NCBI GenBank assembly: GCA_026874595.1
Contig: CM049322.1
Location: 11,052,400-11,116,399, forward strand
Direction: 5' to 3'
From: Sipunculus nudus
Lineage: Eukaryota > Annelida > Sipuncula > Golfingiida > Sipunculidae
DNA length: 64,000 bases
Made by a program: the position numbers and the translations under genes. Within the stretch, counting starts at the first letter, position 1. The number at the start of each line of letters is the position of its first letter. This document shows, piece after piece, positions 1 to 63,701 of the stretch. The notes under the pieces are model-generated. The model was not told the DNA's origin. It saw only the letters and a program-made list of their open reading frames with translations, and made no database searches.

Positions 1-50
1 CCTTTGCCATCTCTCCAATGAATTCCAGTTTCCAAGCGCAGCGGAAGTAA
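1..50 (+). CDS. Copy A exon 9, 3' part
   Basis: Aligns without gaps to the end of exon 9 of copy B (36,643-36,858). The frame is set by B and ends in phase 1 (GTA A) before donor GTAAGTGC at 51. It encodes the last 16 residues of the second lipocalin domain. Confidence 0.85.
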   Translation, partial: FAISPMNSSFQAQRK

Positions 51-1789
51 GTAAGTGCAATTCTTATATCCAGGGGAGAAATATTTGAAGTGATTTCTAG
101 ATTTAAGCGGCATTAAAATCGTCAAATACATGTACCAATAAAGGTATCATGAAAAAGCCTGAGTGCAAAGGTAGATCACAACTCTTCAAAATAGAAACTT
201 ACATTGTAAGGAATGCAAGCCTCCACATGTATTCGCATTCACTAATTCGGCCAATATTCTTAGGTTAATTAGAGCATACGTGACCGTATATTTGTCTATA
301 TCAATTGATGACGTTCTTTAATCCGGATAATGTGCCCGACCAGATCCACGCTGAATGTTGTGCAACTTATTCTTTCCTTCTAATATATACAACATCTACA
401 CCTCAGTTGTCTAATTTAAATTGATTTTTTCCCTTATTATATGATTTAACATTTTCCTTGATTTTTTTATAGAAGGATAGTGCCTGTATCATTGATGATA
501 ACGAGATTATTTTATACTTCCAGACTGCCCTAGATTACAGCCAGCAGGTAAGTTATGTAACACTTATTTACCCGAGATTGATGTATGATTGACATAGGTT
601 CTGCCTGATTAGAACAATAATTAATCGAAAGGAGGACCGGCAGAAGACCCCAGTAACCTCAATATGGCCACATCGGCTCTAAGTCTATAGAAAGCCTAAA
701 ATATATTTGTTAAATACATTTTCATGATACGATAACAATATTTCCTTTTATATATATTCATTACCATACTATCCATAATCTACGTCTTATTTAAAGTATT
801 TAAACGTTCCAAAATGGGCTAACATTTAAAGACGATCCAATGAGGCATCTGACAAATGCAATGCAATGTCCTTAAGTTTTACAATATCATAAGCATTGTT
901 TAAAACCGCTTTTTCAAGGTACCTATCAACCTACATTAAAAAAAAAGAATTCATCTGATTTCTCGCCTCCGCTGTGTATATATTAATGATTTAAGGGTTT
1001 TTCTGGTTATGAAAAGTTCTTTTAAGGCCTCTGTGAAGGGGTATGAACATGTTTATGAACAACATGTTTGTAAACACAGCAGTGTTGAAGAAATGAAAAA
1101 AAAAATAACCAGATTCCATTGTTGAATTTGTTTTTCTTATTTCGGCCGGCTCCACGAAATATAAACACGTTGATATAAACAAAACAAGTGGCCTGAGTGC
1201 CGCGATATCCACGTTTTCTGGCCTTTTTTTTAAAAAAAAGCTCCTAGGGATTATCTAAATTTTATAAAGGTTAGATAGGTGATCGGGCCCCTTTAATATA
1301 AATATTAACACTATTAATATTAATGTCGATATTAATTGTTGGAGAAAATAATGTCTTTATTTCTTTTACCTCAGGATCTGGTTCCCCAAGTGGTGAGTTA
1401 ATTATATTTTGTGTGGCGCATTATTGTATATAAAGACGATAATTTTCTTTTTAGATAATTACAAATACATGTATTACAATTTCTGATATAAACATTGTAA
1501 TAACAGTGATACAGAGAAATTTGCATTGTTTATGTGATCTGCTTGATACTGTTATCCTTGCCATAAAGATCCGTTTGGTGATTAATGTTGTTTCGTACAT
1601 AGTTCCATTAAATTATTTCCAGTCGTTATTATCACATTTCTTTTATCACATTAGTTGAACCACGACTTAGCATTCAGAATAACTCAAAGTAATCGGCAAT
1701 ATGTTTTCTTTGGTATTCAAGGAATATCCGCTTTTGTGACAGCCAGTGTGATAACAGCAGTAGCAGGCGCCACCTACTGGGAATTTTAG
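1..1789 (+). CDS. Copy A: 3' end of two-domain lipocalin-like, GPI-anchored protein (partial)
   Basis: Last four exons of a paralogue of the complete gene at 23,603-38,287: exon 9 (partial) 1-50, exon 10 524-547, exon 11 1375-1392, exon 12 1722-1789 with stop TAG at 1787-1789. All introns are GT/AG and the phases (1,1,1) equal those of copy B. The exons encode the end of the second lipocalin domain (CHLSNEFQFPSAAEV), a CPRLQPA linker, a Gly/Ser/Pro stretch and the hydrophobic tail ISAFVTASVITAVAGATYW. That tail is consistent with a GPI-attachment signal. Compared with B, the Asn-Leu-Ser sequon in domain 2 is changed to His-Leu-Ser, and the tail end differs (Thr-Tyr-Trp-Glu-Phe instead of Asn-Tyr-Leu-Thr-Phe). 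The frame is open in every visible exon, so the gene looks intact as far as it is seen. The start lies left of the window. Confidence 0.85.
524..547 (+). CDS. Copy A exon 10 (24-nt micro-exon)
   Basis: Acceptor TTCCAG at 518-523, donor GTAAGT at 548. With the split codon before it, it encodes Asn followed by CPRLQPA. It is the same size and phase as exon 10 of copy B, and the surrounding introns have diverged more than the exon. Confidence 0.82.
1375..1392 (+). CDS. Copy A exon 11 (18-nt micro-exon)
   Basis: Acceptor CTCAG, donor GTGAGT. It encodes SGSPS between two split Gly codons. This small-residue stretch is the probable GPI attachment region. Size and phase match copy B. Confidence 0.8.
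1722..1789 (+). CDS. Copy A exon 12, terminal hydrophobic tail
   Basis: Acceptor TTCAAG, in-frame stop TAG. It encodes a 21-residue hydrophobic C-terminus, typical of a GPI signal that is removed after attachment. Homologous to 38,220-38,287. Confidence 0.82.
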
Positions 1790-63700: not shown

Positions 63701-63701
63701 C
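48683..63701 (+). CDS. Copy C: two-domain lipocalin-like gene, exons 1-7 (3' end outside window)
   Basis: Exons 48683-48787, 57976-58091, 59225-59322, 60266-60487, 61212-61238, 62542-62597, 63574-63701. All have the same sizes and phases as B, with GT/AG introns and an open frame of 752 nt. The ATG is preceded by an in-frame TAG, as in B. The part seen has the signal peptide (MLRILFLIVTVTAAYS), the whole of domain 1 and the start of domain 2 (VIGRWYLRVMYL). Replacements against B over 250 complete and split codons are few: V4I, V14A, A17S, H54Y, Y75D, V107A, K206T, Q207K, L210I, R233M, D238E, V246L, H248Y. Cysteines and sequons N70 and N77 are kept. Exons 8-12 should follow right of the window, exon 8 about 1.2 kb beyond exon 7 if spacing is like B. 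Confidence 0.87.
48800..48984. repeat. Tandem duplication at the start of copy C intron 1
   Basis: A segment starting CTGGCTTTTCAGAATACTAA is present at 48,800-48,883 and again from 48,884 to about 48,984. Copy B has it once (23,717-23,820). Confidence 0.8.
49086..52140. other. Part of copy C intron 1 missing from copy B
   Basis: The left side of a roughly 4.2-kb segment that B lacks. I see no gene; the frames at 49,343, 50,326 (minus) and 51,701 (minus) have no recognisable domain or splice support. It may hold older repeats I cannot name. Confidence 0.45.
52140..53690 (+). mobile_element. L1/Tx1-like LINE ORF2 remnant: reverse transcriptase to 3' end
   Basis: Near 52,215 a LLDYVKTFDRLEW-like reading matches RT motif A. 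At 52,390-52,440 GGVRQGCPLSPYLFF is the classic motif B. The following YADD-type motif is lost in a deletion. Next are RNLTLKGRVLITKTLGIPKL and NDFLWMGKKAKIKHT (52,750-52,920), typical L1 thumb region, and then a zinc region near 53,266-53,320 (NPVCNY, stop, then HKDNVEHRFFNCDVVKIFW). Stops separate the parts. The last 390 bp are also present in copy B intron 1. Confidence 0.82.
53690..54080. other. Between the two LINE remnants in copy C intron 1
   Basis: AT-rich; aligns with 24,260-24,690 in B. A Lys/Arg-rich open stretch (about 53,953-54,070) could be part of either LINE or chance. Confidence 0.45.
54080..56780 (-). mobile_element. L1/Tx1-like LINE remnant, ORF1, endonuclease and linker, in copy C intron 1
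   Basis: Homologue of 24,590-26,710, minus strand. ORF1 start MSRQDILFIQKLIFVICC (two copies, ending at 56,652 and 56,338 on this strand because of a 314-bp tandem duplication), then VKYEYERTKDSLLIPYKNDN. A zinc knuckle C-x2-C-x4-H-x6-C near 55,680-55,640 has the same in-frame stop as in B. Endonuclease start FLNVRGLNNYFKRKKILSRF (about 54,975), then QESLIIAGDFNILIHTD (about 54,650) with the GDFN motif intact. About 300 bp at the 3' side (54,080-54,375) are kept here and lost in B. Confidence 0.75.
56153..56780. repeat. 314-bp tandem duplication within the LINE (copy C only)
   Basis: The unit starting ACACCTCGAAAGATCTCATT occurs at about 56,153 and again at about 56,467, nearly identical. 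Copy B has one unit. Confidence 0.85.
56780..57975. other. Copy C intron 1, remainder
   Basis: No gene; aligns with 26,820-28,131. A stretch near 57,870-57,895 lacks about 150 bp present in B (27,890-28,040). Confidence 0.5.
57976..58091 (+). CDS. Copy C exon 2: domain 1 G-x-W exon
   Basis: Same as B exon 2 except Tyr for His54. Phase 0 to 2. Confidence 0.92.
58092..59224. other. Copy C intron 2
   Basis: No gene; full-length alignment with B intron 2. Confidence 0.6.
59225..59322 (+). CDS. Copy C exon 3
   Basis: Encodes DFNRTCKETRTRRISLNP and on, Asp75 in place of Tyr. Phase 2 to 1. Confidence 0.9.
59323..60265. other. Copy C intron 3
   Basis: No gene; aligns with B intron 3. Confidence 0.6.
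60266..60487 (+). CDS. Copy C exon 4
   Basis: Protein identical to B exon 4 in all 73 complete codons despite eight nucleotide differences. Split codon 107 gives Ala. Confidence 0.93.
60488..61211. other. Copy C intron 4
   Basis: No gene; contains a (CT)n tract at about 60,881-60,943. Confidence 0.65.
60881..60943. repeat. (CT)n microsatellite
   Basis: About 63 bp of CT repeats, at the place of the longer tract in B intron 4. Confidence 0.95.
61212..61238 (+). CDS. Copy C exon 5 (27-nt linker micro-exon)
   Basis: Identical in sequence to B exon 5, including the donor site. Confidence 0.88.
61239..62541. other. Copy C intron 5
   Basis: No gene. Keeps the inverted repeat of B intron 5 (ACACCAGAAAT near 62,148; ATTTCTGGTGT near 62,206). 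Confidence 0.6.
62542..62597 (+). CDS. Copy C exon 6
   Basis: Encodes DACYEKFIPYFNTYDTKK, phase 1 to 0. Confidence 0.9.
62598..63573. other. Copy C intron 6
   Basis: No gene; about 620 bp shorter than B intron 6. An AAT-rich stretch lies at about 63,300-63,385. Confidence 0.6.
63574..63701 (+). CDS. Copy C exon 7: domain 2 G-x-W exon
   Basis: VIGRWYLRVMYLLDGRSPER and on to codon 250, phase 0 to 2, donor GTAAGT. Five replacements against B. Confidence 0.92.

Follow-up and report, generated by a model that had tools for sequence, protein, structure and literature searches.

A chromosome-wide family of two-domain lipocalin genes with a predicted membrane-anchoring tail in Sipunculus nudus

We analyzed a 64,000-nucleotide stretch of the Sipunculus nudus genome (assembly GCA_026874595.1, contig CM049322.1, positions 11,052,400 to 11,116,399; hereafter the window), which is a plus-strand segment of a 61-Mb chromosome designated C17. 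Searches beyond the window covered a genome of 1.43 Gb in 153 contigs. The window carries one complete and two partial copies of a gene whose product combines a predicted signal peptide, two lipocalin units in one chain, and a C-terminal end resembling a signal for attachment of a glycosylphosphatidylinositol (GPI) anchor. Lipocalins are usually viewed as single soluble carriers. A preliminary description, made from the letters of the window alone, had read the products as two-domain, probably GPI-anchored lipocalins.

The one complete copy in the window, c4, occupies positions 23603 to 38287 on the plus strand. It consists of 12 exons whose 11 introns all have GT-AG borders, with phases of 0, 2, 1, 1, 1, 0, 2, 1, 1, 1, and 1 in order, and it encodes 389 codons plus a stop. 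When six exons or open frames were scanned individually against Pfam, nothing matched, and the exons were therefore sought by comparing copies, using open segments that are conserved between them. This rebuilt model reproduced the exon and residue numbers of the preliminary description exactly. The product begins with a hydrophobic signal peptide (MLRVLFLIVTVTAVYSA, judged by eye from the sequence), continues through two units of approximately 170 residues each, and closes with GSGSPSG followed by a 21-residue hydrophobic end.

Exon 1 (23603..23707), which is present in all six copies of the cluster described below, holds the start codon, the signal peptide, and the N-terminus of domain 1. The GRWY motif of this domain lies in exon 2 (28132..28247), more of the domain follows in exon 3 (29385..29482), and its core strands and helix are encoded by the 222-nucleotide exon 4 (30407..30628). 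Exon 5 (31460..31486) supplies the end of domain 1 and a linker. Domain 2 starts in exon 6 (32876..32931), carries its own GRWY motif in exon 7 (34531..34658), and extends through exon 8 (35927..36018) into the 216-nucleotide exon 9 (36643..36858), which encodes a DTDYTNY motif, a cysteine hairpin, and a helix region; the domain ends in exon 10 (37345..37368). An 18-nucleotide microexon, exon 11 (37871..37888), encodes the GSGSPS linker and the likely omega region, and exon 12 (38220..38287) provides the hydrophobic 21-residue tail and the stop codon. Exons 2, 3, 5 to 8, and 10 are placed by the rebuilt model, and exon 12 is placed by the model together with a comparison of tails.

When the window was compared with itself by BLAST, long direct repeats appeared at offsets of approximately 25 to 37 kb. 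The same comparison with 60 kb added on each side revealed at least five copies, and a sixth lies further left. The array therefore comprises six copies, c0 to c5, over about 180 kb (C17:10.94-11.12 Mb), and the array of three first described is correct for the window but is only part of a larger cluster that extends beyond it. Local alignment and an exon-chaining script were used to carry the c4 model over to the remaining copies. Three of the six copies are intact, with all 12 exons open and correctly spliced (c0, 385 amino acids; c1, 388; c4, 389). Two others are broken: c2 has an in-frame stop in exon 3, and its exons 7 to 10 were not found, whereas in c3 the frame of exon 9 is disrupted left of the window edge. 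In the sixth, c5, 10 of the 12 exons are open, and seven of those lie inside the window; its exons 8 and 9 could not be located in sequence that is partly N.

The two partial paralogs reported to flank c4 are indeed present, at positions 1 to 1789 (c3) and 48683 to 63701 (c5), both on the plus strand. Copy alignment locates the end of c3 exon 9 at 1..50, and, with exon chaining, its exon 10 at 524..547 and exon 11 at 1375..1392; exon 12, with the hydrophobic tail and stop, lies at 1722..1789 and is additionally supported by tail comparison. The c5 exons 1 to 7, placed by copy alignment and exon chaining, lie at 48683..48787, 57976..58091, 59225..59322, 60266..60487, 61212..61238, 62542..62597, and 63574..63701. 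The c3 and c5 exons first noted are present in the window, but c3 as a whole is not an open gene because of the break in exon 9. Left of the window, in addition to the intact c0, matches resembling exon 1 and part of exon 9 at C17:10935595 and C17:10974281 suggest further incomplete copies in the cluster. The gene structure is far beyond chance, because c4 reaches a chaining score of 2133 and three loci in other clusters reach 654-1313, against 18-42 in eight controls, of which five were stretches of unrelated or reversed sequence and three were block shuffles.

The family reaches well past this array. Searched in six frames with the 389-residue product, the genome yielded 106 scored matches from 252 candidates, and the counts derived from them are lower bounds. 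All but one of the scored matches (105 of 106) fall on C17. A tally restricted to the 58 C17 matches that cover exon 4 or exon 9, leaving aside an exon 9 match on contig C10 and matches to other exons, gives at least 30 exon 4 places and at least 28 exon 9 places, some of which are broken copies. They form groups near 10.2, 10.7, 10.9-11.1, 15.8, 19.5, 20.9-21.3, 40.6, 45.06, and 45.4-45.8 Mb. There are thus about 30 loci, some of them broken, on one chromosome. Exons of domain 1 and domain 2 mostly alternate along the direction of transcription, and some stand singly; in the 20.9-21.3 Mb group, exon 9 alone was seen.

Among the 30 best-scoring loci, nine of which are exons of c0 to c5, exon 4 is open, has splice sites, and is exactly 222 nucleotides long in 17 of 18 cases (six from the cluster), and exon 9 is open and exactly 216 nucleotides long in 12 of 12 (three from the cluster). 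This sample is biased toward intact exons because it was taken from the best matches. Four distant loci could be modeled over part of their length, namely those at 45.51 Mb (exons 2-10), 19.46 Mb (exons 1-10), 19.48 Mb (exons 4-10), and 45.06 Mb (exons 3-9). In all four, exons of domain 1 lead through exons 5 and 6, the linking pair, into those of domain 2, in order and with the same phases, and the number of units is two wherever a whole gene could be modeled. Together, these comparisons establish both the anatomy of the gene and the expansion of the family. A whole-genome Pfam search for lipocalins and fatty-acid-binding proteins returned only two matches at E ≤ 0.001, both at C7:31.80-31.81 Mb. 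Judged from the part of the profile that they match, these are probably two exons encoding cytosolic fatty-acid-binding protein. The two-domain family is therefore invisible to such a search.

Domain 2 is a recognizable lipocalin. It matches the Pfam family PF00061 (Lipocalin) in all five members scanned (E ≤ 10), with a best E value of 1.8e-7. Against a family cut-off of 23 bits, domain 2 of c4 alone scores 24.0, full-length c4 scores 22.4, and full-length c1 scores 29.7. These scores lie close to the cut-off, the full-length c4 chain falling just under it, and domain 1 gave no match to the family in any of the five members. In a profile search of the Protein Data Bank (PDB), the closest structures to domain 2 are Q83 (E 1.4e-6), insecticyanin (4.1e-5), and retinol-binding proteins (8.2e-5 and weaker), whereas human ApoD matches at E 0.026. 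To call the protein ApoD-like, as was done at first, is thus only loosely right.

Unit 2 of c4 carries both GRWY and DTDYTNYVIAWYC. Across five aligned members, the GxW motif of strand A in domain 2 reads GRWY in four and the shorter GRW in all five; a further gene, at 19.48 Mb, has TRWY in domain 2. The TDY motif is present in all five and at 10 of 12 exon 9 loci, the remaining two having TDF and TDL, and the corresponding TDY..Y motif occurs also in ApoD. In an alignment with RBP4, cysteines of the retinol-binding protein stand opposite three of the six in domain 2 (the hairpin pair and the one after the helix), and the other three fit by position only. RBP4 is a single soluble domain, and the retinol-binding protein cysteines are joined as three disulphides. 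It seems reasonable to predict that the same pairing would occur in each barrel of the Sipunculus protein.

Domain 1 is connected to the lipocalins by way of domain 2. Comparison of the two by hhalign gives a probability of 93.2 and an E value of 3e-7 at 17% identity. Four introns are common to both domains, with the same phases (0, 2, 1, 1) at corresponding places, and the offsets of the six cysteines in corresponding exons are nearly equal (3/6/19,29,59/1 in domain 1 and 4/5/19,27,57/1 in domain 2). The two domains share ancestry. The GRWY of strand A is present in domain 1 in all five rows, and of the six cysteines in this domain, five do not vary among these rows and the first occurs in all four rows that reach it; unit 1 of c4 has one cysteine beyond the six. 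Domain 1 therefore probably adopts an eight-stranded barrel fold, as judged from these resemblances, and the proposal of two lipocalin domains in one chain stands, domain 2 by its own Pfam and PDB matches and domain 1 by its relationship to domain 2. In a tree of 14 domains, seven first domains and seven second domains lie on opposite sides of one branch with support of 100/100. On this tree, the doubling of the barrel therefore precedes the gene duplications sampled.

The copies in the array are under purifying selection. By the Nei-Gojobori method, the ratio of nonsynonymous to synonymous divergence (dN/dS) is 0.14-0.51 in six pairs among c0, c1, c4, and c5, three of which use c5 and are limited to its exons 1 to 7. 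The two domains are conserved unequally. Identities with c4 for domains 1 and 2, respectively, are 90/84, 88/80, 80/62, and 37/32%, such that domain 1 is higher in all four comparisons, and dN is lower in domain 1 in all three pairs of intact copies. This pattern would fit a constant module (domain 1) joined to a variable one (domain 2). Because domain 2 changes faster than domain 1, it would be expected to bear most of the ligand diversity among the approximately 30 loci.

The C-terminal ends of c0, c1, c3, c4, and c5 share GSGSP(S/I)G followed by 21 mostly hydrophobic residues that run to the stop codon, with a mean hydropathy of 1.26-1.94. The 18-nucleotide microexon occurs at five of 12 exon 9 loci, which are c4, c0, c1, and two loci of the 45 Mb cluster, and it was not found within the 1.5 kb searched at the other seven. 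The signal peptide and GPI-type tail first noted in c4 are thus both legible in the sequence, and the predicted tail is conserved among the five array copies. We consider GPI anchoring of the two-domain protein to be likely.

Taken together, these features suggest a scheme in which each gene produces a secreted protein with a signal peptide, two barrels, and a C-terminal signal that would be exchanged for a GPI anchor. An intron-bearing lipocalin gene would have duplicated internally to give the two barrels, each of which would be held by three disulphides arranged as in retinol-binding protein. The protein might then reside on the outer cell surface, where its pockets could capture small hydrophobic molecules such as pigments, lipids, retinoids, or compounds derived from the diet, with domain 2 perhaps carrying most of the ligand diversity across the loci. 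A surface-tethered, two-pocket binder of small hydrophobic compounds is the best-supported reading of these sequences, and we give the full explanation, GPI tether included, somewhat better than an even chance. Our suggestions regarding the ligand, the tissue, and the division of labor between the domains are guesses. More tentatively still, the roughly 30 loci could constitute an evolving repertoire of GPI-tethered proteins, with barrel 1 held steady and barrel 2 diversifying, that arose independently of moth polycalins and serves as a surface panel of small-molecule receptors or scavengers. We regard this broader idea as possible but unlikely.

Several observations weigh against these proposals, and they are best considered together with the alternatives they favor. 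Perhaps ligand is bound by domain 2 alone, and domain 1 is a degenerate barrel serving as a stalk or as a face for binding other proteins. None of the five members scanned gave a Pfam match for domain 1, and the best PDB match of this domain, sandercyanin, has E values of 0.014 (single sequence) and 0.022 (profile), neither significant alone. Moreover, the TDY motif is absent from domain 1 in all five rows, yet this domain is better conserved than domain 2 in each of the comparisons with c4. The steadiness of domain 1 is itself not uniform, as dN/dS is lower there in only two of the three pairs of intact copies. However, domain 1 keeps its GRWY motif and its conserved cysteines, and its seven best PDB matches, though weak, are all entries for sandercyanin, a bilin lipocalin, with unrelated proteins below them. 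We therefore doubt that binding is confined to domain 2, although the idea retains some appeal.

Another concern is that the same two-domain protein might lack a GPI anchor, its end being a short membrane segment or simply retained, such that the mature protein is soluble or integral to the membrane. The mean hydropathy of the 21-residue end is moderate, the c1 tail includes an arginine, and no tail was found for the genes at 19.48 and 45.06 Mb in the sequence searched. In addition, 17 candidates for a hydrophobic terminal exon were counted in 66 kb of background, a chance rate of 0.26 per kb. Because this amounts to about one per 4 kb, it is conservation among close copies that makes the case for the tail. 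Measured against that background, the candidate tail at 19.46 Mb is no better than chance and was not counted. Nevertheless, the hydrophobic stretch runs to the end of the chain and is followed by no basic residues of a cytoplasmic segment, a microexon of small residues precedes the tail and recurs at two loci of another cluster, and the layout matches that established for GPI signals. A protein without the anchor thus seems unlikely to us, and the GPI-tethered form is the one we prefer.

Much less probable is that the array consists of decaying copies of little function, maintained through recurrent tandem duplication. Two of the six copies are broken (c2 and c3), and lone exon matches occur elsewhere, as this would predict, but three copies are complete and intact, dN/dS is 0.14-0.51, and exon lengths and splice sites are constant in nearly all of the best-scoring loci, even if these are biased toward intact exons. 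That two separate single-domain lipocalin genes have been misread as one is scarcely credible: although the C-terminus of domain 1 and the N-terminus of domain 2 are each lipocalin-like, no stop follows domain 1 in the splice-joined frame of c4, the junction between exons 5 and 6 is in phase 1 in all three intact copies, both exons recur in the four distant genes modeled, and the exons of the two domains mostly alternate along the clusters.

The nearest functional model for such a protein is offered by the polycalins, midgut membrane proteins, of Lepidoptera (Bombyx mori, Plutella, Helicoverpa, and Spodoptera), which, like the Sipunculus genes, place several lipocalin units in a secreted chain. 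This defining trait is present in the c4 product, with its two units and signal peptide. The silkworm polycalin (B. mori P252, or chlorophyllide-binding protein) is described as binding chlorophyllide, and polycalins are listed among proteins of the midgut brush border to which Cry toxins bind (PMC4985599). For the Spodoptera exigua protein, both a signal peptide and a GPI site have been predicted (PMC5220377). The published account of the Plutella protein gives 15 lipocalin-like units and no fewer than 49 exons (PMC10145054), compared with two units and 12 exons in Sipunculus. Unlike polycalin, the Sipunculus family has multiplied whole genes rather than units. Among tick salivary lipocalins there are double forms, with two lipocalin domains in one chain, and the passage describing them mentions no GPI tail (PMC9779611).

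Insect Lazarillo and ApoD belong broadly to the same kind of lipocalin. The coding sequence of ApoD is reported to be spread over four exons (PMC8530192). Insect Lazarillo is described as GPI-linked, and the Sipunculus protein departs from that type, a single domain with a GPI anchor, in having two domains. Lazarillo and ApoD are both single-domain proteins. Yeast Svf1 and the bacterial AimA belong to other sequence families and are not known to have a GPI tail. Svf1 is reported to have two lipocalin domains and to act at the interface of the endoplasmic reticulum and Golgi (PMC10583516), and the bacterial protein is titled as having lipocalin-like domains (PMC6219842).

The suggestion that a two-domain GPI form had never been described therefore does not survive, as polycalins are multi-unit proteins, one of them with a predicted GPI site, and tick double lipocalins have been published. 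Because of these examples and Svf1, neither two barrels per chain nor a predicted GPI-tethered protein with multiple lipocalin units is new. What seems new is the multiplication of a two-unit form to about 30 loci on one chromosome. No family of this kind appeared among the papers listed by searches of an open-access collection, which covers few subscription journals and no bioRxiv preprints. If our reading is correct, these genes would represent a second family of tethered lipocalins with multiple pockets, beside the moth polycalins, and would offer a natural set of paralogs for studying how pockets co-operate on one anchor and what surface-bound lipocalins collect. There would also be a gain for genome annotation, because Pfam misses domain 1 in all five members tested.

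The window holds a few other features. An Rfam scan of it returned nothing at the gathering threshold. A search for a molluscan hemocyanin domain gave no match, but its controls gave none either, and it carries no weight. Within the long intron 1 of c5, at 52271-52546 on the plus strand, lies a reverse transcriptase fragment (RVT_1, E 1.1e-6), which scores 29.0 bits where the cut-off is 29.6 and may partly explain why this intron is longer than its counterpart in c4. A 314-bp tandem duplication, 98% identical, occupies 56151-56781 in c5, where the corresponding c4 sequence (near 26511) is single, and it appears to reflect a recent event. Finally, a diverged interspersed repeat of approximately 180 to 230 bp occurs at 3523-3950, 7554-7991, and 40053-40279, and it recurs beyond the window at about +70 kb and +104 kb.

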